Virus record (IMG/VR): IMGVR_UViG_3300042691_055965
Coordinates: 124,001 to 188,000 of that record
Reading direction: 5' to 3' (one strand)
Source: a virus
DNA length: 64,000 nt
Below, piece after piece: positions 601 through 59,367 of this stretch. The notes beneath the pieces were generated by a model. It worked only from the letters and a program-made list of their open reading frames with translations. It had not been told where the DNA came from and did not search any database. A program made the translations under genes and the position numbers. The stretch's first letter is position 1. Every line of letters begins with the position of its first letter.

Positions 601-605
601 TGCAC

Positions 606-613
606 TATAAATA
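606..613 (-). promoter_or_regulatory. TATTTATA box (putative phage promoter) for the helicase
   Basis: TATTTATA reads on the minus strand and ends 5 nt before the helicase ATG at 600. It is half of a divergent pair with the box at 648-655. Promoter function is inferred from recurrence. Confidence 0.5.
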
Positions 614-647
614 AAAATAGTAAATTCTAATAAATAATCAATTAAAG

Positions 648-655
648 TATTTATA
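648..655 (+). promoter_or_regulatory. TATTTATA box (putative phage promoter) for the neck gene
   Basis: TATTTATA reads on the plus strand, 3 nt before the ATG at 659. With such a short gap the transcript would be nearly leaderless if this is the core promoter. It is the divergent partner of 606-613. Confidence 0.5.
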
Positions 656-658
656 GAT

Positions 659-2693: not shown

Positions 2694-5600
2694 ATGGCAT
2701 CTACAAACAAAGTATTCGTTTCGCCTGGAGTTTATACTTCAGAAAGAGATTTAACTTTTGTTGCCCAAAGTGTGGGGGTAACTACATTGGGGATTGTTGG
2801 TGAAACCTTACAGGGTCCAGCCTTCGAACCTATTTTCATAACTAATTTCGACGAATATCAAGTATATTTCGGTGGAACAAGTCCTGAAAAATTCACAAAC
2901 ACACAAATACCTAAATACGAAACATCTTATATTGCAAAAGCGTATTTGCAACAATCAAATCAATTATTTGTTACAAGAGTTTTAGGTTTGTCAGGTTATG
3001 ACGCTGGACCGTCTTGGTCAATTACAACTATTGGTAATGTTGATCCAGGAACTATTGGTTTATCTGCAAATACATCAGGTGTACAAATCGTTAACTTTAC
3101 TGGAACTACAGGCGGAAGTTCTAACGTTGTTATTACAGGTACATTACCATCTCTTATTTCATCAGATTTTTACAATCCATACACTACATTCAACGGGGGT
3201 ACATCTTCTTTGAATGCTAATTTCCAATCGTTTATTGCAAACGAAATCGTTTACCAATCAACCGCATCTTTAAATGCTCAATCAGGTACAACCGCATTAT
3301 TTTGGGGTACAGTAAGTGATGCGACTTTTAACTCTGTTACAGGTGCAACAATTGGTGCAGGATTAAGTGCGTATTCAGAAACTTTTGGTGTAAGTAATGT
3401 ATTATTATCTCAAGCAAATTTATCAGCAACAACAAACGATCCTTGGTACTACGCATTATTTGACTATTCACAAGTTGCAAGTGTTGGTTCTTACGATGGT
3501 TATGGTTTTGGTACTACTTTAGGAGCAATCAATTCTATCGGTGTTGGTTCTTATTCAGGTTATTGTATTATTTCAGGTACAACATATTCAGGTACACCGT
3601 ATTCAGGTTGGGATGATTTAGTTATTGCAACTTTAAGAAGTAGAGGTATCACTAACTATTCTTCAACACAACACGGGCCATTGTATCAAGTTACAGGTAT
3701 AACCGATGTTCAAATGGTTTGTACTGGTTCATATTCGGCGGTAACTAAAGACCCATATGCAACATTTGTTGTAAGTGGTATTACAAAAGATGCTGATACG
3801 TTCACTTTTGAAACATCATTGTTAAGTACGGATACTGAATATCTTTCTAAAGTATTTGGAAGAAGTAACTTTGGTAAAGATAGAACTGAAGTTCCTTTAT
3901 TTGTTGAAGAAGTTTATTCAAGTTTATTATTGAACGGATACAGACAAGGTAAGGTACGAGGTTTGAATTGTGATTTAATCGAATTGGATAGTGCGGTTTC
4001 ACAAGCATCAGGTTCAATAGGTTTTTATTTAGAACAATATCAAACACCAGAAACCCCTTATTTGGTTTCTGAACTTCGTGGTAATAAAGTTTATAAGTTA
4101 TTTAAGTTCAAACTTATTTCTGATGGAAATGCTGCAAACAGACTTGTTAAGATTTCAATTGGAAACGTTTCTTTTAACAATGGAACATTTGATGTATTTG
4201 TCAGAGACTTCTATGACAACGATCAAAACGTAAGAGTTATCGAAAGTTTCACGAATTGTTCATTAAATCCATCTTTGAATAATTATGTAGCAAACAAAAT
4301 AGGTACAGCTAATGGTGAATACAACTTAAATTCTAAATACATAATGTTAGAAATGAGTGATGAAGCACCTGAAGATGCACTTCCTTGTGGATTTGAAGGT
4401 TACATTATGAGAAACTATAATCAAGCACAACCACCATTTATAGTTTACAAAACAAGATACTTACAACCTGGTGACGTTATTTACAACCCACCATTTGGTT
4501 CTACAAGTGGAGCTGATAATCCTGTTATTTCAAACGGTGAAAACCCAAGAAAGGCATACTTAGGTATATCTAATATTACTGGTGTTGACTATGATTATTT
4601 TGAATACAAAGGTAAACAATTACCTGCTAATTTAGAAACTGATACTACAGGTCCAAGTTGGACTTATCAAATCAAAGGGTTCCACATGGATAGTGGGGCA
4701 ACTGTGGTAACTATGTTTGATACATTAACATCAGCAACTACACAAGCGTTTGAAGTAGGTGCTGGAAGTTTTAATTCAGAACCAACTGATCCTGATAACC
4801 CTTATTACAGATTGAACACACGTAAATTTACTTTGTATCCTTATGGTGGTTTCGATGGATGGGATATCTATAGAGAATATAGAACAAACAGTGACACATA
4901 TGCTCTTGGACAAACAGGTTATAAATATGGTGCGGCACCATCATCACAATTCCCTACAGCAACAGGATGGGGAGCGTTCAAACAAATTTCAGGTCCTAAT
5001 CAAGAAGTGTGGGCAAATACTGACTATTACGCATACAAATGGGGACAAACAACTTTTGCTAACCCTGAAGCGGTAAACATTAACGTATTTACAACACCTG
5101 GTATTGATTATGTTAACAACTCAAATCTTGTTGAAGATGCGATTGATATGGTTGAAACAGATAGAGCGGATTCAATTTACATATGTACTACACCTGATTT
5201 CAACTTGTTCTTACCAACATTTAGTGATGTAACAGAAGGTTTAATTTATCCACAAGAAGCGGTAGACAACCTTGAAGAAACAGGAATTGATTCAAACTAT
5301 ACAGCAACCTATTATCCTTGGGTATTGACAAGGGATTCAGTTAATAACACACAGATTTATTTACCAGCAACTGCTGAAGTAACTAAAAACTTGGCGTTGA
5401 CTGATAACATTGCATTCCCTTGGTTCGCATCTGCAGGTTACACAAGAGGTTTAGTAAATTCAATTAAAGCTCGTAAGAAGTTAACACAAGAAGATAGAGA
5501 TACTTTATATAAAGGAAGAATCAATCCAATTGCTACTTTTTCTGATGTGGGTACAGTAATTTGGGGTAACAAAACTTTACAAATTAGAGAGTCTGCTCTT

Positions 5601-5912
5601 GACAGAATTAATGTTAGAAGATTGTTGTTACAAGCAAGAAAACTAATTTCAGCAGTAGCAGTAAGATTACTATTCGAACAAAACGATGATAAAGTAAGAC
5701 AAGACTTCTTGGATTCTGTAAACCCAATTTTGGATTCAATTAGAAGAGATAGAGGTTTAATTGACTTTAGAGTAACTGTTTCTAACACACCTGAAGATTT
5801 AGATTCAAATACATTGACAGGTAAAATCTTCTTAAAACCAACAAGAGCGTTAGAATACATTGACATCGAGTTTGTGATTACACCAACAGGAGCATCATTT
5901 GATGACGTTTAA
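2694..5912 (+). CDS. Contractile tail sheath protein (gp18-like), enlarged
   Basis: A 1072-aa sheath subunit that polymerises around the tail tube and contracts during DNA injection. The N-terminus (VFVSPGVYTSERD, residues about 7-19) matches the SPGVY start typical of sheath proteins. The C-terminus (DRGLIDFRVTVSNTPEDLD, then LKPTRALEYIDIEFVIT) matches the conserved C-terminal handshake region. T4 gp18 has 659 residues; the extra length is mainly a Ser/Thr/Gly-rich stretch at about residues 105-370, probably a surface-exposed inserted domain. A strong hairpin terminator follows the stop. The sheath call is firm; the nature of the insertion is inference. Confidence 0.93.
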   Translation: MASTNKVFVSPGVYTSERDLTFVAQSVGVTTLGIVGETLQGPAFEPIFITNFDEYQVYFGGTSPEKFTNTQIPKYETSYIAKAYLQQSNQLFVTRVLGLSGYDAGPSWSITTIGNVDPGTIGLSANTSGVQIVNFTGTTGGSSNVVITGTLPSLISSDFYNPYTTFNGGTSSLNANFQSFIANEIVYQSTASLNAQSGTTALFWGTVSDATFNSVTGATIGAGLSAYSETFGVSNVLLSQANLSATTNDPWYYALFDYSQVASVGSYDGYGFGTTLGAINSIGVGSYSGYCIISGTTYSGTPYSGWDDLVIATLRSRGITNYSSTQHGPLYQVTGITDVQMVCTGSYSAVTKDPYATFVVSGITKDADTFTFETSLLSTDTEYLSKVFGRSNFGKDRTEVPLFVEEVYSSLLLNGYRQGKVRGLNCDLIELDSAVSQASGSIGFYLEQYQTPETPYLVSELRGNKVYKLFKFKLISDGNAANRLVKISIGNVSFNNGTFDVFVRDFYDNDQNVRVIESFTNCSLNPSLNNYVANKIGTANGEYNLNSKYIMLEMSDEAPEDALPCGFEGYIMRNYNQAQPPFIVYKTRYLQPGDVIYNPPFGSTSGADNPVISNGENPRKAYLGISNITGVDYDYFEYKGKQLPANLETDTTGPSWTYQIKGFHMDSGATVVTMFDTLTSATTQAFEVGAGSFNSEPTDPDNPYYRLNTRKFTLYPYGGFDGWDIYREYRTNSDTYALGQTGYKYGAAPSSQFPTATGWGAFKQISGPNQEVWANTDYYAYKWGQTTFANPEAVNINVFTTPGIDYVNNSNLVEDAIDMVETDRADSIYICTTPDFNLFLPTFSDVTEGLIYPQEAVDNLEETGIDSNYTATYYPWVLTRDSVNNTQIYLPATAEVTKNLALTDNIAFPWFASAGYTRGLVNSIKARKKLTQEDRDTLYKGRINPIATFSDVGTVIWGNKTLQIRESALDRINVRRLLLQARKLISAVAVRLLFEQNDDKVRQDFLDSVNPILDSIRRDRGLIDFRVTVSNTPEDLDSNTLTGKIFLKPTRALEYIDIEFVITPTGASFDDV

Positions 5913-6100: not shown

Positions 6101-6978
6101 TGGATATTAGAAAACATATTTTGGAATACCACAAGAAAAAAATTACAGAGGGATTCACGTCTGAAGGTGAACCTGATACAAAATATTATGCTTTTGATTG
6201 GGACGACAACATTATGTTTATGCCAACGAAAATAATGGTTCTTTCCGACAACGATGAAGAAATAGGAATGTCTACCGAAGATTTCGCAGAACACCGACAT
6301 CAAATAGGTAGTGAACCTTTTGAATATAAGGGGGCAACTATTGTGAATTATGCACCTAATCCATTTAGATATTTTGGTGTAGAAGGTGACAAAAGATTTA
6401 TTATTGATTGTATGACAGCACCTGTCGGTCCTTCGTGGAATGATTTTGTGGAATGCATCAATGGAGGTTCAATATTTGCAATTATAACAGCAAGAGGACA
6501 TACACCTTCAGTGTTAAAAGAAGCAGTTAAAAATCTAATTGTGTCCAACAAAAATGGAGTCAACTACAAAGAAGTGATAGAAAACCTTAAAAAGTATGAA
6601 CAAATAATAAATCAGTCTGAATCAGTAAATGAGCAAGTTGACATAAATTTCAACGGAAAAGAATTGTTAGAAAGTTATTTAGATAGGTGTATGTTTGCTC
6701 CTGTTTCTTATGGTGAAGGAAGTGCATCTAATCCTGAAGAAGGAAAAATCAAAGCAATGAGAAAATTTATTACATATTGTAAAGAATTGGCAAATATGAT
6801 TAAAAAACCAGGAAAGTTCAAAAATGATGTTGTTAACGATGAAATTATCCCATTTATAGGTTTTTCAGACGACGATCCAAGAAATATAGAAAAAATGTCA
6901 CAATTTTTAGAAAAGGAATATTCAGATAAACCAGTAAGAACATATTTAACTAAAGGAGGTACTAAAGAAGAAATATAA
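6100..6978 (+). CDS. HAD-superfamily hydrolase / phosphatase-like protein
   Basis: A 292-aa protein from ATG 6100; a GTG one codon earlier is possible, but the TGATG junction favours 6100. HAD motif I is FDWDDN with Asp33 and Asp35. Motif II is IITARG, whose Thr is conserved in the family. A lysine in EEGKIKAM may serve as motif III, and FSDDDPRNIE near the C-terminus is motif IV. The family transfers phosphoryl groups through the first Asp. An insertion between motifs II and IV (about residues 150-215) forms a cap-like region. It sits between sheath and tube genes, so it may act in virion assembly or be a passenger enzyme; the substrate is unknown. Confidence 0.75.
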   Translation: MDIRKHILEYHKKKITEGFTSEGEPDTKYYAFDWDDNIMFMPTKIMVLSDNDEEIGMSTEDFAEHRHQIGSEPFEYKGATIVNYAPNPFRYFGVEGDKRFIIDCMTAPVGPSWNDFVECINGGSIFAIITARGHTPSVLKEAVKNLIVSNKNGVNYKEVIENLKKYEQIINQSESVNEQVDINFNGKELLESYLDRCMFAPVSYGEGSASNPEEGKIKAMRKFITYCKELANMIKKPGKFKNDVVNDEIIPFIGFSDDDPRNIEKMSQFLEKEYSDKPVRTYLTKGGTKEEI

Positions 6979-7040
6979 CTTATACTAGTAGTATATTTTC
7001 AAAATAGACAAAAGTAAATAGAAAAAAATAAAACAATAAA

Positions 7041-7048
7041 TATTTATC
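7041..7048 (+). promoter_or_regulatory. TATTTATC box upstream of the tail tube gene
   Basis: TATTTATC 29 nt before the ATG at 7078, in an A-rich leader without a Shine-Dalgarno site. Confidence 0.4.
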
Positions 7049-7077
7049 TAATAAATAAAAGACAAAAAAAATAGACA

Positions 7078-7566
7078 ATGGCTGATTTGTTAATGAAAAT
7101 GCCCTTTCAGTATGAACCTAAAAGAGCTAACCGATTTATAATTACTTTCCCAACATCCTTGGGTATCAACTCTTGGTATGTTGAAAGTACGTCACGACCG
7201 AGTATTAAAATAGAATCCAAAGATATTCCTTTCTTAAATACTAAAACTTATGTTGCTAGTACTTTTGAATGGGAAACAATTAATGTAAAGTTTAGAGATC
7301 CAATCGGACCTTCTGCATCACAAGCATTAATGGAATGGGTTCGATTACACGCTGAATCAGTAACAGGACGTATGGGTTATGCTGCTGGTTATAAAAAAGA
7401 TGTTGATTTGGAACTTTTAGACCCAACGGGGGTTGCTGTTGAAAAATGGATTTTACAAGGATGTTTCTTAGAAGGTGTTAAATTTGGTGACTTAGGTTAC
7501 GATAAAGCGGATATCATGACTGTTGATGCTACACTTCGTCCTGACAGATGTATATTAGTTTACTAA
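7078..7566 (+). CDS. Tail tube protein (gp19-like)
   Basis: A 162-aa protein, almost the same length as T4 gp19 (163 aa). It has the expected layout: N-terminal RANRFIITFPTS strand, PSIKIESKDIPFLN, a conserved strand pair ending TFEWETINVKFRDP, a helix with ALMEWVRLH, and a C-terminal TVDATLRPDR strand. It forms stacked hexameric rings of the inner tail tube through which DNA passes. It is transcribed alone between its own TATTTATC box and a strong terminator, which would suit high-level expression. Start chosen at the first ATG. Confidence 0.88.
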   Translation: MADLLMKMPFQYEPKRANRFIITFPTSLGINSWYVESTSRPSIKIESKDIPFLNTKTYVASTFEWETINVKFRDPIGPSASQALMEWVRLHAESVTGRMGYAAGYKKDVDLELLDPTGVAVEKWILQGCFLEGVKFGDLGYDKADIMTVDATLRPDRCILVY

Positions 7567-7584
7567 AACAAAACAAATTTTTTC

Positions 7585-7610
7585 AAAACCCATCTATCAA
7601 GGTGGGTTTT
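7585..7610 (+). terminator. Intrinsic terminator after the tail tube gene
   Basis: A 10-bp stem (AAAACCCATC / GGTGGGTTTT, one T-G wobble) with a 6-nt loop, followed directly by more T residues. Confidence 0.85.
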
Positions 7611-7613
7611 TTG

Positions 7614-7642
7614 TTTACATAAAATTCTTGTAGACTTATACT
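7614..7642 (+). promoter_or_regulatory. Sigma70-like promoter candidate for the gp26-like gene
   Basis: TTTACA, a 17-nt spacer, then TATACT, with the ATG 13 nt further on. The TATTTATA box is absent here. Found by inspection only. Confidence 0.35.
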
Positions 7643-7655
7643 TAAAATAAAAACT

Positions 7656-8408
7656 ATGGATCAAACAGCGGCATATGGACAACAAAATTTTAACTTACCA
7701 CACGATGTTGTAAAATTACCTTCAAAAGGTGTATTTTATAAACCAAAAAAAGAATCATTGAAAATAGGTTATTTAACGGCAAGTGATGAAAATTTATTGA
7801 TGTCACAAAATAGTTCATCTGACAATTTAATAACAACACTTTTAAGAAACAAAGTATATGAACCTGGATTTGACATAAATCAGTTGTTAAATACTGATGT
7901 ACAAGCAATTCTTATATTTTTAAGAAATACTTCGTTTGGACCTGAATATAATATATCGGTTAAAGATCCTGTAACAGGAACATACTTTGAAACAACCTTA
8001 ATGATGGATGCGATTGATTTTGAAAAACAAACGGTATTTCCTGACGAAAATGGTTTATTTACTTTCAAACTACCAAAGAGTAACAAAGAAGTAAAATTTA
8101 AATTGTTGTCTTTAGCAGACGAAAAAGAAATAGAAAATTTCACAAAAAGTTACCCACAAGGAATGGTTGCACCTACAGTCACAAAAAGATTAGAAAAACA
8201 TATTGTTGAAATTGATGGTGAAAAAGATAAAGGTAATATATCACAATTCATTTTACAAATGCCAATAATGGATTCGAAAGAACTAAAAAAATTCATTGAT
8301 GTTTGCGAACCTAAACTTGATTTAAAAAGAACAGTAATAGCCCCGTCAGGAGAAAAGGTAACAGTGAATATGTCCTTTGGGGTTGAATTTTTTCGTCCTT
8401 TCTTCTGA
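7656..8408 (+). CDS. T4 gp26-like baseplate / tail assembly protein
   Basis: A 250-aa protein between tail tube and tape measure. The N-terminus VVKLPSKGVFYKPKKESLKI, followed by a helical section with DNLITTLLRNKV and later DPVTGTYFETTLMM, resembles the T4 base plate protein family that includes gp26 (Pfam T4_baseplate, from memory). In many tailed phages the slot just before the tape measure encodes tail assembly chaperones, so this protein may be the chaperone equivalent. A short ORF in another frame follows. Either hub-assembly factor or tape-measure chaperone fits. Confidence 0.65.
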   Translation: MDQTAAYGQQNFNLPHDVVKLPSKGVFYKPKKESLKIGYLTASDENLLMSQNSSSDNLITTLLRNKVYEPGFDINQLLNTDVQAILIFLRNTSFGPEYNISVKDPVTGTYFETTLMMDAIDFEKQTVFPDENGLFTFKLPKSNKEVKFKLLSLADEKEIENFTKSYPQGMVAPTVTKRLEKHIVEIDGEKDKGNISQFILQMPIMDSKELKKFIDVCEPKLDLKRTVIAPSGEKVTVNMSFGVEFFRPFF

Positions 8409-8421
8409 TCACAAAAAAAAT

Positions 8422-8547
8422 ATGCTTGACGAAATTTTTTATTTGTGTAAACATGCAAATTTTTCGTATTCTGACATATTAAATATGCCAACATATGAAA
8501 GAAGATATTTTATTGACAAACTAATCGAGAGTTTTCAAAAAAATTAA
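8422..8547 (+). CDS. Small tail-assembly-type protein (41 aa) before the tape measure
   Basis: ATG at 8422, stop at 8545-8547, and in the +1 frame relative to the preceding gene. The product has LCKHANFSYSDILNMPTYER and then a helix YFIDKLIESFQKN. The MPxYERRxFxxKLxE pattern is common in short ORFs next to tape-measure genes of contractile phages. The frame is open back to 8368, so it overlaps the last 41 nt of the gp26-like gene; it could be made separately or as a frameshift extension. I see no clear slippery site. Function as the second part of a tail chaperone pair is inference. Confidence 0.6.
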   Translation: MLDEIFYLCKHANFSYSDILNMPTYERRYFIDKLIESFQKN

Positions 8548-8554
8548 AGAAATC

Positions 8555-8562
8555 TATTTATA
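8555..8562 (+). promoter_or_regulatory. TATTTATA box upstream of the tape measure gene
   Basis: TATTTATA preceded by AATC, 15 nt before the ATG at 8578. The next unit (10565) has the same context and spacing. It supports the start at 8578 over the ATG at 8638. Confidence 0.5.
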
Positions 8563-8577
8563 TAAAAAGATTTACGT

Positions 8578-10548
8578 ATGCTACTATTTTTTACAGACCC
8601 AACCCTTGGTGAATTTTCAACTAAAGGTGAAACTTTTATGGGGATTGTCGAACAATTAAGATTATCATTAAAAGAGGGTATTGTACCTGAAACTGCCACT
8701 ACAACTATTACCGCAATGGACAACGAAGCAAAAAAACTTGCTCGTACAATAGGTAGCGGTGTCGTTGGAAATACAGATGACTTTAGGGAACAGTTATTTA
8801 CTATTTCTAAAAATGTAGTTGAGATAGGTTTAAGTTTTACTGATGTTACAGATGTAGTTGGTGATTTAGTGGCTGAAACAAAAAAATTGACTTTACCTTC
8901 AACCCAAGCAACAACAAAGATGTTAGAATTTTCAAAGGCGGTAGGACAAACTAGTAAAGAAACAGGTAAAATGGTTGGACAATTCATGACATTGACTTTT
9001 GGACAAAAAACCGCAATCAATGAAATGTCTAAAATAGCAAAACTTGCAAGACAAACCGGATTAGATGCTAAAACTCTTTTGAATACTATGTCTACTGAAT
9101 TGGCTAAAGTTAATTCGTACAATTTTAGAAATGGAAAAGATGGATTAAGTAAAATGGCGGCAGAAGCACAAAGGTTAAATACTACACTAAGTGATATAGG
9201 TGCATTTGCTTTGGCTGATAAATTAATAGACCCAGAAAATGCAATTGAAGTTGCAACAAGTATGAGTATGATAGGTGGTGCGGTTGAGGGAATGACTAAT
9301 CCATTTGCTTTAATGAATGACGCAGCAAACAACGTAGAAAATCTCCAAACTAAAATGATAGAAATGGCAAAAGGTGCCTTTAAAGTCAATGAAGCAACCG
9401 GAGAAATTGAAACAAACTTTATTGCTCAACAACGGTTAAGGGCTCAAATAGAATCGACTGGGGGAGATTATGAAAAGTTAATGTCACTTGGAAGAACGGC
9501 AGCAAAAGAACAACTAGTTCAAAACAAACTTTTATCGTCTGGTGTTGATTTGTCGAAAGTATCAGAGGAACAAATGAATCTTGTGAAATCTTTGACTGAA
9601 ATTGGTGAAGGAGGTAAATTAGAATTAAGAATACCTGGTTTTGAACAAACCGATTTGGTTAGTGCGATTGAAAAAAATCCCACACAGTTAACTGATGCTT
9701 TGAAAAAATATCAAGAAATGGCAGCATTGTCTGATAGGGATTTGGCAGAAAAAAGTTTGAATTTGGAAGAATTACAACAAATAGATACCCGTATAATTAG
9801 AGATGTTGTACTAACAAATCTTGGAAAAACTACTAGAGATCAACTTTTACTAGATATGGTTAATGCTCAAAAAGAGTTAGGTGGTAAGTTTGAAACTACT
9901 GCAGGTGTATTGGGAAAAGGGGCTGAAGAATTTATAACCGCTAGAGGACTACAACAGTTTTTTAATGCCGAAAAAACTAAAGTGGAAGGTAATTTGGGAT
10001 TAACGAAGGAAGATGTTAGAATTGCGGCTGAAAAAAGGGCAAGTAAAGCAAAATTGAAAACATTAAAATTTGATGCGGCTTCAGGTGTACTTAATGAAGA
10101 AGATGCTGCGTTTGGATCGACTAACACCAAAGTACTTTCTTTGGGTAAAGGTGAAATGTTTAAATTTATAAAAGAAGATGAGGCTATTTTTGCTCCAAAT
10201 GCAATAGAAAATCTTGGTATATTAAAAGATGTTTATATGCAAACAATGGGTGTGGCAAAATCAATACCTTCAGAAGTAAAATTAATCGAACCATCGGCGA
10301 CAAAAACAGGAGAAATAGCAAAACAAACAGTAGAAACAAACACAAATGTTGTAACGACTAATAAAAATGAGGACACCATTAATCTCAATATAAATCTAAA
10401 TATTGATGGAAAAAATCTACCAAACAACCTATCAGATATGTTATTTAAAAATCCATCGACTGTAAGAGAGTTAGAAAATAAAGTTATGGACACTTTAGAT
10501 AAACAAGACAGATTAAAAACAAGTAAAGGTAGATTTATTAAAAGATAA
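8578..10548 (+). CDS. Tail tape measure protein
   Basis: A 656-aa, mostly helical, Ala/Lys/Glu/Thr-rich protein directly after tube and chaperone-type genes. Its size fits a tape measure (T4 gp29 has 590 residues). Long runs such as TKKLTLPSTQATTKMLEFSK and repeated small-residue helices predict a coiled-coil rod. This class sets tail length and is ejected ahead of DNA. The start at 8578 is supported by the promoter-like box; an alternative ATG at 8638 would remove 20 residues. The C-terminus has a strand-like LNINLNIDG segment. The call rests on composition and position, not on a specific motif. Confidence 0.75.
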   Translation: MLLFFTDPTLGEFSTKGETFMGIVEQLRLSLKEGIVPETATTTITAMDNEAKKLARTIGSGVVGNTDDFREQLFTISKNVVEIGLSFTDVTDVVGDLVAETKKLTLPSTQATTKMLEFSKAVGQTSKETGKMVGQFMTLTFGQKTAINEMSKIAKLARQTGLDAKTLLNTMSTELAKVNSYNFRNGKDGLSKMAAEAQRLNTTLSDIGAFALADKLIDPENAIEVATSMSMIGGAVEGMTNPFALMNDAANNVENLQTKMIEMAKGAFKVNEATGEIETNFIAQQRLRAQIESTGGDYEKLMSLGRTAAKEQLVQNKLLSSGVDLSKVSEEQMNLVKSLTEIGEGGKLELRIPGFEQTDLVSAIEKNPTQLTDALKKYQEMAALSDRDLAEKSLNLEELQQIDTRIIRDVVLTNLGKTTRDQLLLDMVNAQKELGGKFETTAGVLGKGAEEFITARGLQQFFNAEKTKVEGNLGLTKEDVRIAAEKRASKAKLKTLKFDAASGVLNEEDAAFGSTNTKVLSLGKGEMFKFIKEDEAIFAPNAIENLGILKDVYMQTMGVAKSIPSEVKLIEPSATKTGEIAKQTVETNTNVVTTNKNEDTINLNINLNIDGKNLPNNLSDMLFKNPSTVRELENKVMDTLDKQDRLKTSKGRFIKR

Positions 10549-10564: not shown

Positions 10565-10572
10565 TATTTATT
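10565..10572 (+). promoter_or_regulatory. TATTTATT box upstream of the 2009-aa gene
   Basis: TATTTATT preceded by AATC, 15 nt before the ATG at 10588. Confidence 0.45.
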
Positions 10573-10587: not shown

Positions 10588-13500
10588 ATGGAAAGTCCAT
10601 TGTCTTTTAATTCAAGTGAAAACTTTAGAAAAAAACTATTGGTAAGAAATTTACAACCCTATTCAGTGAATGGTGTTTTTAATGTGCCAAAGTTAGAAAA
10701 CAAAAAAGAAGTTATTTTGGTTGACTATTCTGTTATAGATTCACCTGAAATTGAAAAAGAACAAAAAAATCAAGAAAAAAAAATAATATCCAAAAACAAA
10801 TATAACCCAAACGACGGATTTGGTTTAGTGATTGACATTAATGCTGACAAAAACTATGAAACAAATTTTGGTAATTACGGTTTTAAAAACACGATTGGTT
10901 CTGTATTAGAAACAATTGGTAACAACTCAGAAAAGTTACTATACGTAAATAATTTATACGGTCCGGTTGATTTTTCATCATCATATGGTAACACCGTTGA
11001 TATTAATAAAAACCTTACAACAAATACTAATTTAGGTTTATATGGGTTTAATTTGACTTTTGGAAGTAAACTTGAAACGTTTGCAATACAAAAAGAAGTT
11101 GAATTAATTACAAAAAACCAATACAATCCAACAGAAAACGACAATAGGAGTACAGTTAATATTAATAATGATATTCAAACTGACGCAAACAAAGGACACT
11201 ATGAATATAAAAGTACTTTACAAAGTAAGTTACAAAATAACGGAATAGTAAAAAAAGACGAATTATTAATTGTCAATCAATATAACCCGATACAAGGACA
11301 AAGTAGTGGTGTTGTTAACATTAATAATAACAAACAAACTTTAGCAAACGAAGGTAACTATGGATTTGATAGTACTGTAGGTAGTACTTTAGAACTTAAT
11401 GGTGATTCACAAGAAATTATTCTTAGAACACTCAACAAATATAATCCTGAAAACGTACCTACAGGTTTTGGAAATACTGTAAGTTTTCCTACAGTTTCAC
11501 TATCATCCAATGCTGGACAATATGATTATGTGTCAAACGGACCAACTTTAACAACAGAACAATCACAAACAAATCAGTATGTTGTTAATATATTTGGACC
11601 GCCAAATGGTTATGGTGAAATCATAGACATTAATGCAAACGCTCAAACAAGATCGAATCAAGGTTTATATAGTTTTACATCATCAAGACCTCCACAAACC
11701 GCAGAACAATCAAGAACAATTGCTTATGTGTCAAACGTATATGGTCCTAATGACGATAATGGATATGGAAGTACCATTGTTGACATTGATATAAATTATC
11801 AGACAGAATCAAATAAGGGTGAATATGATTACACAGCATCAAGCCCAGGAAAAACTACGGAACAGTCGCAACAATACGGATACCAAAAAAATAAATTTAA
11901 TAGTGGTGAAGGTGAATTTGAACAAACAACAATAGAAGAACTTTTTCCTTCGTCAATCAATGCTCCTTATTTCAATAGTGACACTACTTTTTATTTTTTA
12001 GCATCAACATATTCACCACTTTCTATTTTAACTGAAGAAAATCCTACAGGAACCGATGGTCCTTTGAGTCAAGATTCAGATTTGGCTAAACTTGGGGCAA
12101 AACAACTTCAAAAAGAATTCAGAACACGAGTTGCTCTTGAGTTGTTCCAACAGACATTAGGAAGTAGTATTTTAACAAACTCATCTGTTACAACAATATC
12201 AGGTGAAATTAGTCCAAAACCTTCTTTCGATCCTTTTGATATATTAGGTGTTGTTACAAACAACATACCTTTAATAGAAAAAAATTATAAAATTACAGAA
12301 CCTGCGAATGTGGCGGTAGAAGCGTTAGGATTTGCGGCCAAACTTGCAGGTTTATATTCACCGTATTCATTAATACCTGGTGAATATTTTGATTACCCAA
12401 ATAGAAACTTTTTGAATCAACTTACAACAAATCCAATAGGTGCTTTCACATCAGGAGTTGGTGGGTTGTTGAATACGTTAGTTACGCCATTTATAGATTC
12501 AAGTTCAGAAAGGTTTCTTGCAAATACATCTAACGCAACAAAAAGTTTATTGTTTGGGCAATTATTTTACAACACATATCGACCACGTTACAGGTTGGAT
12601 TCGGCGAATGCAAATCTAACAGCACCAAAAGAAAATTTTTATATAGGTAAAACTAAAAACTTTGTAAGTGATACTGTCAGTCCTGCTAATGAAATTGCTG
12701 ACGGTGCTTTTGGTAAAAAGAATGTTGGTCCTGTTTTCGACTATGGGTTAATAGGGCAAGACTACGAAGGTAGTGAAGTTCAAAGAAAACTATTTGGATT
12801 GAAATCCTACCCTTACTACGACGCTCAAGGTGGACTACAAGGTGGTTTTTCATGGTCACCAAAAAGTAAAAATTATATAAAACCTGGACAATTAGTTGGA
12901 CCTCAAAATCAAGTTTTTCCGGGACAAACAGAATTCGAATCAGATACAACACTAAGAAGACAATTTGCGGAAACCGATTCATCAAAATTGAGTTTTACTG
13001 ACGGATCGATTTTAGACATAACACAAAAATTAGTTGAGGCGGGAGCAAAATCATCAAACACAAAAGGGCATGTAGGAAATGCAATTAATCAAGTTAGTAA
13101 AGTCTTTAATGATGGATATATAGAATTAACTAAAGGTTCAAGAGTAAGAAGATACCTAACACCAAATGCTATTCAAGAAGGTAATAAGGTTAAGGACATA
13201 GTAGGTTATGAATTTGCTAGACTTTTTACAAAAGATCGTCCTTTTGCTAATTATTCACAATTACAACAAAAAGATGGGATGGTTTATCAAGGAAGAAAGG
13301 CGTCTTATTCAGTTTTAAATAATTCATATAATTTAAATATTGCACCAATGAAAGGTGCTAGTGGGGTAGAATCATCAAATATTGTCGATGGTAAAGTAAA
13401 AAAATATATGTTTTCAATCGAAAATTTATCATGGAGAACATCAAACCGTCCTGGGTTTACCGTTGATGATTTACCAACTTGTGAAGTTGGACCGAATGGA

Positions 13501-16500
13501 GGAAGAATAATGTGGTTTCCGCCTTATGAATTATCATATGATGATACTTCAAGAACAGGTTGGAATCCAAATACTTTTTTAGGAAGGACAGAACCTATTT
13601 ACACTTACAAAGACACTGAAAGAACAGGTACATTGAAGTTCAAAATGATTGTCGATCATCAATCAGTTTTGAATATAATAGTAAATAAAGAATTAGAAAG
13701 AGCAGATTCATCTACTGCAACAAAAGTGGTTGATTCATTTATGGCGGGTTGTTTAAAATATGACATTTATGACTTATTAAAAAAATATAAACAATTCAAT
13801 TTGAGTGATGTCTTTTCTGTAATAAGTGCATTGAATCCAGATGCTCTTAGTACTTTAGTAAAAGAAACGTCAAACGCAACAATCCAAGGTGATGTTACTA
13901 TAGATCAAAATGCAAACATAGCGAATCAAGATACGGGGGCTAATAGTCAAACAACAACAACTGAAACGTTAGATAAGGACAAATTTCAGAACATACAATT
14001 ATTGTTTGGTATAGATACAATAACTGATCAGAATTACGATAGCGTTTACAATAGTTTGATTTCATTACAAAATACAATTATTAATCTAGCAAGTGATAAA
14101 ATTTATAATTACGATGGTACTGAAATTGTCGGTCCTTCAGCAAATTTTGGACTTGCAGATAACGTAGATGATAGACAGTCTTCAATACAAGGAGTATTTG
14201 ATTTTTTACCTACACAGTATGATTTATTCAAAGATATGTTGTCTAAAGTACTTAATACATTAAAAAATGGGTCGAAAGTCACTATTTCTATTGAAGGTTC
14301 CTCAAATATTAACGAAGGTGGTGGGGGTATTGGTTTAACACGTGCAAATTCTATTAAAAAAACAATCGAAGAATATACTGAAGGTGATGATAAAATGTCA
14401 AAATTTTTGGAATCAAGTCCACCACTTCTTACGTTAAACACAACAGACTTGGGGACACCTGTTATTAACATAGAAAATTATAGGGGTATTGATTGTTCGA
14501 AAGGGTTTTCAGATAACGGTGTTTTTCAAAATTCCGTTCAAGGAAATATGTGTCGAGCCACAAAGGTAAGTATTCAAAATGTTACGCCAGGAACCGGACA
14601 AGAAGGTACGTCAACAGCAACAACACCACCTGAAGGTGATTTAGCTAATCCATTTGCTGCTGATAATAGTAATGTTGATAATACACAAACACAATTATTA
14701 TCAAACCCTTATGTACAAAAAACAAAAAATGAAGACAAAACAAATGGTATAAGGGACGGTTTGACAAAAAGACTTTTAAGAAAATTACTTACCGAATGTG
14801 ATTATTTTGAAATGATTTCAGAAAGAAATTCATTTATATATGACGGAATAAAAAGTAAAATAAAAAACTTTCATCCTGCATTCCATTCTATGACACCTGA
14901 AGGTTTGAATTCTAGACTTACATTTTTACAACAATGTATGAGACCTGGTGACACAATACCAACGGCAGTTGAATCAGGTGAAGGTGAAATAGGTTTGCAA
15001 TATAATGATGTATTAAATAGTGCATTTGGTTCACCACCCGTATGTATTTTGAGGGTTGGTGATTTTTATCACACAAAGGTTGTTTTTGAAAGTTTAGATT
15101 TTAAATATGAAACACTTGATTTGAACGCTGACGGAATTGGAGTTCAACCAATGTTTGTTGATGTTACGTTAAGTTTCAAAATGATTGGTGGACATGGTTT
15201 AAGAGAACCAATTAATTCCCTTCAAAATGCATTATCTTTTAATTATTATGCAAATACTGAAATCTATGATGAAAGGGCGGAAGTTACAGAGGACTTTACG
15301 TCAAAGTATGATAGTGAAATTTTTGAACAAATCAAAAATGAAGTAGGTGTAGTTGATAATATACAAAGACCGGCAGTAAATGATGGGGGTGCAACTATAG
15401 GTATTGTTCAAAATACTTTTGTCGATCCACAAACTAATACCATTACTGGAACTATACGATACAAAGAAGTGATGGATGAAATGGTTGCTAAAACACAAGA
15501 ATATGCAAATGGGGTTCTTTCAACTATTGAACAACTTAAAAATGATACAATATGGGGTGGACTTGTTTTATACACCGCAGAAAGAAAATATAAAACAGGA
15601 TTATTTGATTACTTGTTAGGTAACATTACGAATTTAGTTAACATATTTGGTAAACCTGTTGGTTATCAAGACAGGGTAGATCAACTTTTCAAAAAAGCAA
15701 AAGATGATGTGGAAGATGATACATCACCAATTCTTGGTGGGATTTCATTACAAAATTTTCCAAATAATGAAGTTAGAAAAATCAAAAACAAACTAAAAAG
15801 TTTAATAAACGACAGAAAAAATAATTATTTACAGGCACTTGAAACAAACACTTCAAAGTTGATACAGTCACAACTAAATTTTATAAAATATAGTGACCAA
15901 ATTAACTATGTTTTAAGTCAAGTTGATGGTTATAAAAACAAAAGTGGTGGTGTTACAATATATAATATTTCTGGAACTACAGGTGTAAGTCCACAATCAA
16001 ACCCAGTACCTGCTGACACGTACATAGAATTACAAAACGACTTTTTGATTATTAAAGATGACTTGAATAGTTTAAACTCTGAACTTGGTAAGTATCAATT
16101 AATACCTTCAGGAACAACAGAATACAATGAATCGTTTGATTTTGATTTGTTTTTGTCAGCAAGTAGTGATAAAAATAATGTTTTCTTTATGATTTTCGGT
16201 AAAGAAATGTTAGAAGATAGAGGTACGGTTAAATTGGTTGATGAATTACTAGCGGCACTTCCAAATGATGTTATAAGTAAAAATAATTGGATTTTATTTT
16301 TGTATGAAAACCTCGGATTCGATGCGACAATGACGTTTAATGGGGAACCTACAGCGGAAATATCTGGAGGATTATATCAACAGTTCAAATCTTCTAAAGA
16401 TAAATTAGAACAAAATCTTAAAAATTTCAAAGATAACTTTTATAATATCAAGTTTCCAAATGGAACATATCTTCCATTTTCTAAATCAAAAAATAGGGTA

Positions 16501-16617
16501 TTTGATTTATCAGTGCAATTACCTGTGGTGCCGCCAGCGGATCAAAACTTACTTGCTTTATGGTCGACAGTTGACAGTACGGGTGAAGACTTTAACTTAA
16601 AGAAAAAAATGAATTAA
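10588..16617 (+). CDS. Giant baseplate/tail hub-type structural protein with N-terminal repeats (2009 aa)
   Basis: Three regions can be seen. Residues about 70-445 hold eight degenerate repeats of about 52 residues, each with an N-x-(Y/F)-(N/G)-P-like start followed by a V-x-IN-type strand and N-x-G-x-Y. Residues about 960-1110 contain SIENLSWRTSNRPGF and TGTLKFKMIVDHQSVLNIIV, a pattern I associate with tail/baseplate proteins; about 1204-1263 look weakly OmpA-like (KVTISIEGSS, LTRANSIKKTIEEY). Residues about 1478-1566 carry GIGVQPMFVDVTLSFKMIGG, a conserved hub-like core. The gene is coupled to a gp53-like wedge gene (1-nt gap) and a second giant gene. It is probably a central baseplate component; the precise T4 counterpart is unclear. 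Confidence 0.7.
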   Translation: MESPLSFNSSENFRKKLLVRNLQPYSVNGVFNVPKLENKKEVILVDYSVIDSPEIEKEQKNQEKKIISKNKYNPNDGFGLVIDINADKNYETNFGNYGFKNTIGSVLETIGNNSEKLLYVNNLYGPVDFSSSYGNTVDINKNLTTNTNLGLYGFNLTFGSKLETFAIQKEVELITKNQYNPTENDNRSTVNINNDIQTDANKGHYEYKSTLQSKLQNNGIVKKDELLIVNQYNPIQGQSSGVVNINNNKQTLANEGNYGFDSTVGSTLELNGDSQEIILRTLNKYNPENVPTGFGNTVSFPTVSLSSNAGQYDYVSNGPTLTTEQSQTNQYVVNIFGPPNGYGEIIDINANAQTRSNQGLYSFTSSRPPQTAEQSRTIAYVSNVYGPNDDNGYGSTIVDIDINYQTESNKGEYDYTASSPGKTTEQSQQYGYQKNKFNSGEGEFEQTTIEELFPSSINAPYFNSDTTFYFLASTYSPLSILTEENPTGTDGPLSQDSDLAKLGAKQLQKEFRTRVALELFQQTLGSSILTNSSVTTISGEISPKPSFDPFDILGVVTNNIPLIEKNYKITEPANVAVEALGFAAKLAGLYSPYSLIPGEYFDYPNRNFLNQLTTNPIGAFTSGVGGLLNTLVTPFIDSSSERFLANTSNATKSLLFGQLFYNTYRPRYRLDSANANLTAPKENFYIGKTKNFVSDTVSPANEIADGAFGKKNVGPVFDYGLIGQDYEGSEVQRKLFGLKSYPYYDAQGGLQGGFSWSPKSKNYIKPGQLVGPQNQVFPGQTEFESDTTLRRQFAETDSSKLSFTDGSILDITQKLVEAGAKSSNTKGHVGNAINQVSKVFNDGYIELTKGSRVRRYLTPNAIQEGNKVKDIVGYEFARLFTKDRPFANYSQLQQKDGMVYQGRKASYSVLNNSYNLNIAPMKGASGVESSNIVDGKVKKYMFSIENLSWRTSNRPGFTVDDLPTCEVGPNGGRIMWFPPYELSYDDTSRTGWNPNTFLGRTEPIYTYKDTERTGTLKFKMIVDHQSVLNIIVNKELERADSSTATKVVDSFMAGCLKYDIYDLLKKYKQFNLSDVFSVISALNPDALSTLVKETSNATIQGDVTIDQNANIANQDTGANSQTTTTETLDKDKFQNIQLLFGIDTITDQNYDSVYNSLISLQNTIINLASDKIYNYDGTEIVGPSANFGLADNVDDRQSSIQGVFDFLPTQYDLFKDMLSKVLNTLKNGSKVTISIEGSSNINEGGGGIGLTRANSIKKTIEEYTEGDDKMSKFLESSPPLLTLNTTDLGTPVINIENYRGIDCSKGFSDNGVFQNSVQGNMCRATKVSIQNVTPGTGQEGTSTATTPPEGDLANPFAADNSNVDNTQTQLLSNPYVQKTKNEDKTNGIRDGLTKRLLRKLLTECDYFEMISERNSFIYDGIKSKIKNFHPAFHSMTPEGLNSRLTFLQQCMRPGDTIPTAVESGEGEIGLQYNDVLNSAFGSPPVCILRVGDFYHTKVVFESLDFKYETLDLNADGIGVQPMFVDVTLSFKMIGGHGLREPINSLQNALSFNYYANTEIYDERAEVTEDFTSKYDSEIFEQIKNEVGVVDNIQRPAVNDGGATIGIVQNTFVDPQTNTITGTIRYKEVMDEMVAKTQEYANGVLSTIEQLKNDTIWGGLVLYTAERKYKTGLFDYLLGNITNLVNIFGKPVGYQDRVDQLFKKAKDDVEDDTSPILGGISLQNFPNNEVRKIKNKLKSLINDRKNNYLQALETNTSKLIQSQLNFIKYSDQINYVLSQVDGYKNKSGGVTIYNISGTTGVSPQSNPVPADTYIELQNDFLIIKDDLNSLNSELGKYQLIPSGTTEYNESFDFDLFLSASSDKNNVFFMIFGKEMLEDRGTVKLVDELLAALPNDVISKNNWILFLYENLGFDATMTFNGEPTAEISGGLYQQFKSSKDKLEQNLKNFKDNFYNIKFPNGTYLPFSKSKNRVFDLSVQLPVVPPADQNLLALWSTVDSTGEDFNLKKKMN
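10795..11920 (+). repeat. Eight degenerate coding repeats, about 156 nt each
   Basis: The conserved aromatic of each unit falls at residues 72, 124, 179, 232, 285, 336, 385 and 437 of the 2009-aa protein, giving periods of 52, 55, 53, 53, 51, 49 and 52 residues. Shared features are N-x-(Y/F)-(N/G)-P, an IN/DIN strand and NxGxYxxxS. Divergence is high, so this is an old duplication. Confidence 0.75.
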
Positions 16618-23380: not shown

Positions 23381-23388
23381 TATTTATA
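23381..23388 (+). promoter_or_regulatory. TATTTATA box before the 74-aa gene
   Basis: TATTTATA 12 nt before the ATG at 23401, separating this pair of small genes from the giant-gene unit. Confidence 0.45.
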
Positions 23389-23400: not shown

Positions 23401-23625
23401 ATGAACGTAAAATTATTATTAGACGATTATTTAAAAAAAGACACAAGAATCACTGAAAAAGAAATGGACAATGGTTACAAACAAGTGTGTGACTTAGATA
23501 CGGGTGATTGTTATACTGTAAGAATGAAAGACGGATTGATTGAAAGATTTGATAATACCGTTAAAACAAATAGAACCCTAAGAGTTGAAACACCTACTGG
23601 GATAAAAACTTTATTAAACGGTTAA
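23401..23625 (+). CDS. Hypothetical protein (74 aa)
   Basis: A small protein starting MNVKLLLDDYLKKDTR, with a central CDLDTGDCYTVRMKDGLIER. Two cysteines six residues apart flank a turn, suggesting a small beta domain. I do not recognise the family. It forms a unit with the gene 4 nt downstream, behind its own TATTTATA box, and ahead of the SSB promoter region. No signal peptide or membrane segment. Confidence 0.65.
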   Translation: MNVKLLLDDYLKKDTRITEKEMDNGYKQVCDLDTGDCYTVRMKDGLIERFDNTVKTNRTLRVETPTGIKTLLNG

Positions 23626-27828: not shown

Positions 27829-27836
27829 TATTTATT
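27829..27836 (+). promoter_or_regulatory. TATTTATT box before the helicase gene
   Basis: TATTTATT 26 nt before the helicase ATG at 27863. Confidence 0.35.
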
Positions 27837-27862: not shown

Positions 27863-29242
27863 ATGTCAGACAAAAAAAACTTCGGATATTTAGGAAATAC
27901 TTTTCAAATTCAATTATTAAACAACATTATTTTATACAAAGATTTTTCTAATTCCATCATTGAAGTTATTGACTCCCATTACTTTGATAACCAGTATTTC
28001 AAAATCATTTGTCAAATGATTAAAGAATACTATTCAAAGTATGAACACACACCGACATTTGATACTCTTGAACAATTAACTAAGTCTGAAATCAGTTCAC
28101 CTATGGCTCAAAAGAGCATTTTAGATATGTTGGAACAGGTTAAGAACGTTTCAGACGAAGGTTCAATTTTTGTTCAAGAAAAAGCCTTAAAATTCTGTAA
28201 ACAACAAGAGCTTCAAAAAGTAATGACAAAAGCCCAATCGATCATCGACAAAGGTGATTTCGAAAGTTATGATAAGTTAGAAGAAATGGTAAGAGGGGCT
28301 CTACAAGTTGGTGAAACAGATAAAGGTACAAGTGATGTATTCTTTAACCTTGATGAGGTATTAAATGATGATTTCAGACATCCAATTCCAATCGGAGTTG
28401 CTGGTATAGATAACCTATTAAAAGGTGGGTTGGCTAAAGGTGAAATTGGTGTTATATTAGCACCAACAGGTGTAGGAAAATCAACATTTACAACCAAAAT
28501 TGCAAATCACGCTTTTAACTTAGGGTATAATGTACTTCAAATATTTTTCGAAGACAACCCAAAAATTATCCAAAGAAAACACTTTACCCTTTGGACAGGA
28601 GTTCATCCTGACGACTTATCTGAAAACAGAGAAGAAGTGATGAATAAAGTAAAACAAATTCAGTCGTCAAGAAAAAACAAATTGATTTTGAAAAAATTAC
28701 CATCAGACACTGTAACTATGAATCAAATTAAAAATCAAGTTAGGAAAATGATGGCAGAAGGAAACAGGGTTGATATGATTATTCTTGATTACATTGATTG
28801 TGTTGTTCCTGACAAGGTTTTAGGTGACGAATGGAAAAGTGAAGGTTCGGTTATGCGTGGATTCGAAGCAATGTGTCATGAATTAGACATCGCTGGTTGG
28901 ACTGCAACACAAGGGAACAGAAACTCAATATCATCAGATGTTGTTACAACCGATCAAATGGGGGGTTCAATTAAAAAAGCACAAGTAGGACACGTAATTA
29001 TTACAGTGGCAAAATCGTTACAACAAAAAGAAATGAATTTGGCAACAATAGCAATTACAAAATCCCGAATAGGTAAAGATGGAATTATATTTGAAAACTG
29101 TAAGTTTGACAATGGTATGTTGGAAATTGACACTGAACAAAGTGTAACGTTCTTGGGTCTTGAAGAACAAAAAGAAGAAAGAAATCGTAACAGAGTTAAA
29201 GAACTGTTAGAGAAAAAAAGACAAAAACAGCAAGAAATTTAA
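27863..29242 (+). CDS. Replicative DNA helicase (DnaB-type, gp41-like)
   Basis: A 459-aa hexameric 5'-3' helicase that unwinds the fork and works with the primase at 62268. The N-terminal domain (about 1-150) is helical. The RecA-type core begins with GVAGIDNLLKGGLAKGEIGV, and Walker A is APTGVGKST at residues 200-208. FFEDNPKIIQRKH follows; Walker B-type MIILDYIDCV is near residues 306-315, and the Gln/Asn-rich TQGNRNS motif comes later. T4 gp41 has 475 residues. The C-terminus is Lys/Arg/Gln-rich. Confidence 0.9.
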   Translation: MSDKKNFGYLGNTFQIQLLNNIILYKDFSNSIIEVIDSHYFDNQYFKIICQMIKEYYSKYEHTPTFDTLEQLTKSEISSPMAQKSILDMLEQVKNVSDEGSIFVQEKALKFCKQQELQKVMTKAQSIIDKGDFESYDKLEEMVRGALQVGETDKGTSDVFFNLDEVLNDDFRHPIPIGVAGIDNLLKGGLAKGEIGVILAPTGVGKSTFTTKIANHAFNLGYNVLQIFFEDNPKIIQRKHFTLWTGVHPDDLSENREEVMNKVKQIQSSRKNKLILKKLPSDTVTMNQIKNQVRKMMAEGNRVDMIILDYIDCVVPDKVLGDEWKSEGSVMRGFEAMCHELDIAGWTATQGNRNSISSDVVTTDQMGGSIKKAQVGHVIITVAKSLQQKEMNLATIAITKSRIGKDGIIFENCKFDNGMLEIDTEQSVTFLGLEEQKEERNRNRVKELLEKKRQKQQEI

Positions 29243-31456: not shown

Positions 31457-31464
31457 TATTTATA
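31457..31464 (+). promoter_or_regulatory. TATTTATA box (distal) before the gp25-like gene
   Basis: TATTTATA 30 nt before the ATG at 31495; it partly uses the T tract of the terminator just upstream. Confidence 0.4.
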
Positions 31465-31482: not shown

Positions 31483-31490
31483 TATTTATT
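31483..31490 (+). promoter_or_regulatory. TATTTATT box (proximal) before the gp25-like gene
   Basis: TATTTATT 4 nt before the ATG at 31495. Which of the two boxes is used cannot be told from sequence. Confidence 0.4.
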
Positions 31491-31494: not shown

Positions 31495-31956
31495 ATGGCA
31501 AACGGTATTACATACGGTATAAACTTTCCATTCAGGCAAAGTCAAGTTGGTAAATACCTTTCTTTATCTGAAACTACTGATGAAGAAATAAGAACAGACT
31601 TGGTACACCTTTTATTAACAAGAAGGGGGAGTAGATACTATCTTCCTAATTTTGGTACTAGGTTGTATGAATTTATCTTTGAACCACTTGATGGTGATAC
31701 TTTTGATGGAATAAAGTCAGAAATAGAAGATTCTGTAAAGCAGTTTATACCAAATTTGACAATACAAAATATAATTGTAGAACCATATACTGAATCTGAA
31801 ATGTCAAAAGGTGATTTGAAACCTGAACAATTTGACATTCCTGTTTATCGTGTCCCTGGTGCGAATACTGAAGAATATACGGCAAAGGTACGAATAGAAT
31901 ATATAGATGAAAACAACCCATTCGGATCGAGGGAATTTATAATTATTAATTTATAA
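31495..31956 (+). CDS. Baseplate wedge protein, gp25-like
   Basis: A 153-aa protein of the GPW/gp25 family, which has a lysozyme-like fold without enzymatic function and joins wedge and sheath initiation. Seen: TTDEEIRTDLVHLLLTRRGS (about residues 28-47), then YYLPNFGTRLYEFIFEPLD, the classic gp25 core in which the RxGxR-x3-P-xxG turn precedes a helix. A TTG two codons earlier is also in frame, but ATG 31495 gives the expected start MANGITYG. It lies 4 nt before the gp6-like gene, the same pairing as in many contractile systems. Confidence 0.9.
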   Translation: MANGITYGINFPFRQSQVGKYLSLSETTDEEIRTDLVHLLLTRRGSRYYLPNFGTRLYEFIFEPLDGDTFDGIKSEIEDSVKQFIPNLTIQNIIVEPYTESEMSKGDLKPEQFDIPVYRVPGANTEEYTAKVRIEYIDENNPFGSREFIIINL

Positions 31957-33854: not shown

Positions 33855-33862
33855 TATTTATC
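33855..33862 (+). promoter_or_regulatory. TATTTATC box before the 2106-aa gene
   Basis: TATTTATC 13 nt before the ATG at 33876, in a 73-nt non-coding gap after the gp6-like gene. Confidence 0.45.
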
Positions 33863-43849: not shown

Positions 43850-43857
43850 TATTTATA
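43850..43857 (+). promoter_or_regulatory. TATTTATA box before the 302-aa gene
   Basis: TATTTATA 13 nt before the ATG at 43871, in a 36-nt gap. Confidence 0.5.
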
Positions 43858-43870: not shown

Positions 43871-44779
43871 ATGGCACTTGGAGCTTATGGTATAGTTAGA
43901 CCGGCAGATGTTTCACCACAGGACGTTGAAATAATTTTGCATTACACACCATCAAGGGATGTAACTACAAATTTCGTATTAAAAAAATTAAATGCAGCAA
44001 ATATCTTAACACCATATTTTCACAATTCAAATACAGGAGGTAATGCAAATGTTGAAATCTTAGGTGGTTTATACAACTTAAGATTACCTGCTAGTGAATT
44101 CACAAATGTTGGAATTTATACCTTGTATATTCGTCCCGCAGAAATCAGAACATCGATTACGGATTGTGGTGTGTTATCGGCACTTCCAAACGTAAAAGGA
44201 ATTATCATAGATGTTAATGATGTTCCACAACAGTTCAGAAATAAATTTGTCAACCAAGGTTTAGTAGGTTTTAGAATAGAGTACTTAAATTCAGATGGAA
44301 CAAAAATTCCTAATTTTTATAGAATCGTAACGTCTGCATTCTTTTGTGAACCTGTAATTTCGGATCAAACTAACACGTCACAGAAGGCTATAAGATACCG
44401 ATATGTTGAAGGAAACAGTGATTTAATATTTTTAACACTTTCGCCTAGTTCATCACCAACAAACAAACCAAATGCGACACCATTTATTGGACAACCAAAT
44501 CAAAATATTATAATTACAAATACATTTTTTAATCCAGTGACTATGGAGGTTCAAATTGCTAATTATGATATAGACACATTGGCGATTGCTTTGTATGGTA
44601 ACCAAACTAAAAGTATTGATGATGGGATTTATACATTATACGACACTGCTGGAAATATATACAAACAATACAACTTATTTGAAGTTAGGGATAACTTTAA
44701 TGAACTACTTTATGAAGTTAGACAAGATAGAGGTGCTAACATTGATTTTAGTAAAAACTTTACAAATATTATTAGTTAA
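43871..44779 (+). CDS. Structural protein of unknown function (302 aa)
   Basis: First gene of a unit that continues through the 993-aa protein and the SprB-repeat adhesin by TAATG overlaps. The N-terminus MALGAYGIVRPADVSPQDVE and the C-terminus YEVRQDRGANIDFSKNFTNI are distinctive but unassigned. Beta-rich, no membrane segment. The location and coupling suggest a baseplate or distal-tail adaptor. Confidence 0.6.
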   Translation: MALGAYGIVRPADVSPQDVEIILHYTPSRDVTTNFVLKKLNAANILTPYFHNSNTGGNANVEILGGLYNLRLPASEFTNVGIYTLYIRPAEIRTSITDCGVLSALPNVKGIIIDVNDVPQQFRNKFVNQGLVGFRIEYLNSDGTKIPNFYRIVTSAFFCEPVISDQTNTSQKAIRYRYVEGNSDLIFLTLSPSSSPTNKPNATPFIGQPNQNIIITNTFFNPVTMEVQIANYDIDTLAIALYGNQTKSIDDGIYTLYDTAGNIYKQYNLFEVRDNFNELLYEVRQDRGANIDFSKNFTNIIS

Positions 44780-50754: not shown

Positions 50755-50762
50755 TATTTATA
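50755..50762 (+). promoter_or_regulatory. TATTTATA box before the 94-aa gene
   Basis: TATTTATA 4 nt before the ATG at 50767. Confidence 0.4.
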
Positions 50763-51064: not shown

Positions 51065-51072
51065 TATTTATA
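51065..51072 (+). promoter_or_regulatory. TATTTATA box before the 337-aa gene
   Basis: TATTTATA 7 nt before the ATG at 51080. Confidence 0.45.
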
Positions 51073-59359: not shown

Positions 59360-59367
59360 TATTTATA
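59360..59367 (+). promoter_or_regulatory. TATTTATA box before the 733-aa gene
   Basis: TATTTATA 4 nt before the ATG at 59372. Confidence 0.45.

Follow-up and report, generated by a model that had tools for sequence, protein, structure and literature searches.

The window analysed here, a stretch of 64,000 nucleotides, corresponds to positions 124001-188000 of a 229,188-base IMG/VR virus record. Two genes diverge from its short intergenic region at 601-658. The leftward open reading frame, whose ATG lies at 598-600 on the minus strand, matches a phage DNA helicase family (phrog_62, 2e-19; 7.6e-114 in a further search). The rightward ORF, 659-1174 on the plus strand, encodes a protein of 171 aa that has 277 relatives in viral contigs and no match in Pfam or PHROG. 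Each gene is preceded by a copy of the octamer TATTTATA: the minus-strand copy (606-613) is separated from the helicase ATG by 5 nt (601-605), and the plus-strand copy (648-655) from the ATG at 659 by 3 nt (656-658). Re-read from the sequence, the box positions, strands and gaps given in a preliminary description of the locus are exact, and each box points at its own gene, as stated there. Left of the window, a Fe/Mn superoxide dismutase gene adjoins the helicase gene (record 122112-122825, minus strand; PF02777 9e-42, PF00081 9e-24), and in relatives some gene is kept at this position.

Both boxes are conserved. Of 35 distinct related regions upstream of ORF 659, whose start codon aligns across relatives, 31 have TATTTAT at 4-6 nt from the ATG, and the box is retained in relatives to 67% protein identity, also where the flanking upstream sequence differs. 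On the helicase side, 19 of 24 distinct related sequences have TATTTAn 4-6 nt ahead of the ATG. The pair at 601-658 is a predicted back-to-back divergent promoter.

The raw number of TATTTATA copies in the window is ordinary (17, for 12.5±3.5 expected; 15 of 100 shuffles reach 17), a count near that expected if a genome of 69% A+T with AT-rich intergenic DNA yielded such octamers by chance. Their placement is far from ordinary: 10 of the 17 end no more than 60 nt 5' of a same-strand start, compared with 0.55 for copies placed at random, and not one of 20,000 random-placement trials reaches 10. Position, strand and conservation all stand far above composition-preserving shuffles. A chance origin is refuted by the shuffles and the placement trials, and we give it a negligible probability.

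Because genes were called in this analysis from ATG starts and a codon-usage score, box-per-gene counts are approximate: across the whole record, TATTTAT precedes 62 of the 118 free-upstream genes (at least 15 nt of free DNA 5'; box sought within 60 nt) and 3 of the 105 abutting genes. Dinucleotide shuffles place it before 7.7±2.8 free-upstream genes, with a maximum of 15, and it is the most enriched 7-mer found de novo (62 seen, 7.6 expected). Sorted by upstream space, it precedes none of 56 overlapping genes, 1 of 28 genes with 0-4 nt, 2 of 21 with 5-14 nt, 17 of 24 with 15-29 nt, 22 of 35 with 30-59 nt and 23 of 59 beyond. Distinct upstream regions of relatives hold it in 269 of 396 cases when free and in 38 of 434 when abutting. 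Its reverse complement is weakly placed (18, for 9.6 in shuffles) and has no spacing pattern. The oriented phage promoter motif of the preliminary description is thus borne out: it is enriched 5' of the first genes of transcription units in the full genome and in relatives alike, and so passes the test that the description itself had named as able to refute it.

A box that lies near the start codon of many genes, in a host group (Bacteroidota, see below) whose mRNAs carry no Shine-Dalgarno signals (PMC6847099), could also act at the RNA level, as a signal for translation initiation or for processing. The dependence of TATTTAT on free upstream space is promoter behaviour, unlike that of a ribosome signal. 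Abutting and overlapping genes, which need translation equally, almost never carry the box, and it was on this absence that an RNA-level signal was ruled out. The distance to the ATG, which is set gene by gene in three very different ranges, and a conserved block about 15 bp 5' of the box also speak against such a signal, and we hold it to be very improbable.

TATTTAT recurs in the cultured Flavobacterium phage vB_FspM_immuto, for which early and late regions were labelled by gene content. Its late region (the structural and replication part) shows the box at 21 of 44 free-upstream genes, compared with 2 of 52 in the comparison group; in the other part it occurs at 9 of 57 free-upstream genes, and TTG...TATATTTAG promoters recur there. 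A cassette GTTG...TATATTTAG is repeated before many small genes of the early region (about 60-78 kb, within positions 50001-100000) and is followed by a near-constant leader, GTATCAATAATTAAAAC. The positional enrichment, the top rank among 7-mers and the recurrence in relatives and in immuto argue that TATTTAT is a promoter box, and the boxes are, as predicted from these patterns, a genome-wide set of phage promoters.

The preliminary description had offered, as one of two readings, that the box is a mirror of the T4 late promoter, TATAAATA. That reading was rejected. TATTTATA is the reverse complement of TATAAATA, yet compared sense to sense the two are identical at 6 of 8 bases and differ only at the central pair (AA in T4, TT here). 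T4 itself, passed through the same pipeline as a control, behaves as expected, its late genes showing TATAAATA in the sense direction. Two substitutions therefore suffice, and no change of polarity is needed. Sense TATAAATA stands before 12 of the 118 free-upstream genes of the record, where the box is TATTTAT(A).

The gaps between the end of TATTTAT and the ATG are not evenly spread (P = 2e-5): in the record, 21 genes have gaps of 4-6 nt, 3 of 7-11 nt and 21 of 12-18 nt, and a third group lies near 27-37 nt. Relatives show the same valley at 7-11 nt. The short-gap class comprises 22 of the 62 boxes, which start 10-13 bp before the ATG and include both genes of the divergent pair; these two are predicted to be leaderless. 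All further boxes catalogued in the window are on the plus strand. Leadered ones precede the tail sheath gene 2694-5912 (2654-2661; 33 nt from the end of the 7-mer to the ATG), ORF 8578-10548 (8555-8562) and ORF 43871-44779 (43850-43857), and leadered TATTTAT copies precede the tail tube gene 7078-7566 (7041-7047), ORF 10588-16617 (10565-10571), the DnaB-type helicase gene 27863-29242 (27829-27835) and ORF 33876-40196 (33855-33861). Predicted leaderless genes are ORF 50767-51051 (box 50755-50762), ORF 59372-61573 (59360-59367) and ORF 31495-31956, which has TATTTAT at 31483-31489, 5 nt from its start, and an upstream copy of the box at 31457-31464. The 7-mer gap of 8 at ORF 51080-52093 (box 51065-51072) is among the few intermediate ones. 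Boxes also lie at 23381-23388, before ORF 23401-23625, and at 55198-55205, before ORF 55217-56845, which has a GTG start.

Spacing class belongs to the gene and is conserved across relatives. The gene following the sigma gene described below has a gap of 4-5 nt in 39 of 42 sequences; gaps are 10-20 nt for ORF 8578 in 24 of 24 relatives, 31-40 nt for the tail sheath gene in 39 of 41 and 30-41 nt for the tail tube gene in 32 of 33. Leadered spacings drift by about 8-10 nt among relatives, and those of the short class stay within three.

A column profile of the 62 TATTTAT sites contains no -35 element. A is the commonest base just 5' of the box (61%), G and C are nearly absent at positions -16 to -14 relative to the box start, and the DNA 3' of the box is A/T-rich, notably A-rich. 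The base after TATTTAT is mostly A or T, and is G in none of the 62 record sites or of 124 leadered sites from relatives. The start signal was sought at leadered sites alone, which are free of ATG bias. Box positions +12 and +13 are A in 89% and 91% of the 35 leadered sites of the record, and in 94% and 95% of the 124 related ones. The -7 element of Flavobacterium johnsoniae promoters, TAHHTTTG, occupies positions -12 to -5; RNA starts 4-5 nt beyond it, and an AT-rich motif is found near -28 (PMC6847099). Setting the first T of our box at -12 by analogy would place the G/C-poor block at -28 to -26 and the start at box +12.

Short-gap genes have their ATG at box +11 to +13 (+10 in one gene), where leadered promoters carry the start A, and the base directly 5' of the ATG is T in 19 of 22 of them, for 19 of 35 leadered genes (Fisher P = 0.02). 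Some 10-12 bp 5' of the start codon, a TA-like signal is generally taken to mark leaderless genes (PMC3160421). On the simplest reading, the RNA of short-gap genes would begin at the A of the ATG. The bimodal gaps, the conserved class and the match between the +12/+13 A signal and the short-gap ATG support this well in silico, and with it the near-leaderless mRNAs that had been proposed for the divergent pair. The same genes might instead have a true start codon farther downstream, or an RNA start farther upstream, the box then being an ordinary promoter with a short leader. In the T4 geometry (box at -13 to -6, PMC2988020), a 4-nt gap would put the start inside the ATG, and this commonest short gap does set the ATG one base closer to the box than the leadered start signal. 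We consider such a reading unlikely, given that two families hold 4-6 nt across many diverged sequences where leadered families drift, that gaps of 7-11 nt are nearly absent, that T so often precedes the ATG and that relatives of ORF 659 align with it at the start codon. Leaderless transcription of the short-gap class remains our preferred reading. Short gaps are few in immuto (3 of about 30) and common in the lineage of the window, so leaderlessness is not universal; in F. johnsoniae, 87% of transcripts have leaders of more than 10 nt (PMC6847099).

SprB repeats, a type IX signal domain, TAnnTTTG boxes and the sharing of the box with a Flavobacterium phage indicate a Bacteroidota host. Phage proteins with SprB repeats, which resemble surface proteins of gliding Bacteroidota, are encoded at record 6775-8985 and 68661-69257; the former also carries a CHU_C type IX secretion signal domain and has a predicted leaderless promoter. 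Other genes of the record include one whose product was recognised by its sequence as a Clp-type ATPase (47997-50045, minus strand) and a full-length dnaJ (204541-205521; PF00226, PF01556, PF00684).

With such a host, the box could be a variant -7 element for the primary sigma factor, sigma-ABfr, used in an AT-rich form preferred by the phage, with no phage sigma involved. The place of the box, its spacing to the start and the AT-rich block near -28 all fit F. johnsoniae promoters (PMC6847099), and TATTTATA agrees with TAHHTTTG at positions 1, 2, 5 and 7 (T, A, T, T). The consensus also requires T at position 6 and a near-invariant terminal G at position 8 (T-6 and G-5 relative to the start; PMC6847099), where our boxes have A at 6, by definition of the class, and never G at 8, so the plain host-like -7 box of the preliminary description finds no support. 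Host-type TAnnTTTG boxes do occur, before about a dozen other genes of the same genome, and their overlap with the TATTTAT set is almost nil; host-type TATCTTTG is likewise enriched 5' of genes in the record. TATCTTTG or TATATTTG is found without TATTTAT before genes at record 4716, 44049, 51256, 67811, 73304, 193487, 196598, 208075, 220969 and 226445, which are candidates for an early class. This partition, the separate TTG...TATATTTAG promoters of the immuto early region and a sigma-like gene in the phage itself make reading by the host sigma alone improbable, and we favour a phage-encoded specificity factor.

The candidate is a 248-aa protein encoded at record 82399-83145 on the minus strand. 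It matches late-sigma family phrog_234 weakly, a family also matched by 28 of 31 relatives (best 1e-4), and it has a Sigma70_r2 match (E 0.007). Sigma factors are the top solved-structure matches of its predicted model, which is of moderate confidence (pLDDT 70), with E >0.01 and low TM-scores. Profile comparison with six gp55 proteins gave E 7e-5 and a probability of 64%, compared with 5% for T4 gp55 alone. Homologs are present in immuto (78174-78872; 2.9e-19) and in Microcystis phage Mel-JY01, in which no clear box precedes the genes in the sequenced neighbourhood of the sigma homolog. An argument from the base-specific pocket of the gp55 structure (PMC7892883) was set aside (Y97 is conserved here, H95 and T99 are not), since H95 is missing from cyanophage gp55 as well and the alignment is a weak one. 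A phage multisubunit RNA polymerase was rejected as the reader, since beta and beta-prime families were not found in a search that detected all 14 controls. Searches of the record, which is possibly incomplete, returned no gp45-type or beta clamp (phrog_223, PF09116, PF00712), and phrog_168, for the T4 clamp loader (gp44), matched only Clp-like and helicase ORFs; T4 gp45, gp44 and the beta clamp were not found in immuto either. With no clamp or loader found, activation cannot be simply T4-like, and clamp activation may be absent. The sigma match, together with the lack of a multisubunit polymerase, clamp or loader in these searches, makes host polymerase with the gp55-like sigma the most likely reader of the box.

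By gene content, the phage appears to be a distant T4 relative, with tail sheath, tail tube, baseplate hub, gp32-like, RecA-like, 5'-3' exonuclease, portal and head protease genes; no family A DNA polymerase was found in the record, though gp32-, RecA- and DnaB-like genes are present. Boxes stand on the sheath, tube and head protease genes, and on none of the gp32, RecA-like, 5'-3' exonuclease and RNR genes. The DnaB-type helicase gene, a replication gene, also carries one, and the class is therefore perhaps not exclusively late.

In the explanation that we think probable, each box is the -10-type element of a promoter that belongs to a phage-specific class, probably a late one, and the phage is a distant T4 relative with a Bacteroidota host. 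Host RNA polymerase bearing the gp55-like sigma would recognise an isolated TATTTAT(A) with no -35 partner, and RNA would start on an A about 4-5 nt past the 8-mer. For one class, that of the divergent pair, this would be the A of the start codon and the mRNA would have no leader; for the other, an A-rich leader of roughly 7 to 35 nt would lie 5' of the ATG, each gene retaining its class across relatives. We see even chances for a broader proposal, that a widespread group of Bacteroidota phages uses a gp55-like sigma on TATTTAT, with no T4-type clamp and with a fixed leaderless or leadered class for each late gene, in hosts that themselves have mostly leadered mRNAs and no Shine-Dalgarno signals. 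If this is true, leader choice would be a conserved form of expression control, sheath and tube being always leadered. The open-access literature yielded no description of TATTTATA phage promoters or of leaderless late genes in Bacteroidota phages. Such a promoter code would allow late genes and true start codons to be annotated from sequence in a large uncultured phage group, for which a candidate sigma is now named. Immuto and Flavobacterium sp. LMO8 form a cultured pair in which to ask whether T4-type late transcription can do without a clamp encoded by the phage, and whether leaderless phage mRNAs are translated in bulk by the ribosomes of Bacteroidota, for which Shine-Dalgarno pairing is not essential.

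Among known systems, vB_FspM_immuto (Immutovirus) likewise has TATTTAT in its late region and encodes a homolog of the gp55-like sigma; it differs in being mostly leadered, in its 160 kb genome and in having a family A DNA polymerase, no counterpart of which was found in the record of the window. Bacteroidota sigma-ABfr promoters resemble ours in position relative to the start, in the AT-rich block near -28 and in T at box position 5. Our box replaces T by A at position 6 and lacks both the G of position 8 and the -33 element, and the host type is used on a different gene set.

T4 late promoters consist of an 8-bp box one turn 5' of the start, with no -35 element and AT-rich DNA downstream (PMC2988020). 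The phage boxes share this isolated AT octamer and its surroundings and stand before virion genes, sheath and tube among them; the same genome also encodes a putative, distant sigma of gp55 type (a weak sequence match). They differ in the central TT, where T4 has AA; the gp45 clamp, clamp loader and gp33 of the T4 gp55/gp33/gp45 system were not identified in this phage; and a leader with a Shine-Dalgarno signal precedes T4 late genes, whereas many promoters here are predicted to be leaderless. In this last respect they resemble leaderless bacterial genes (PMC3160421), in which the position of a -10-type box makes RNA begin at the start codon; what differs here is the phage-specific box and the host group.
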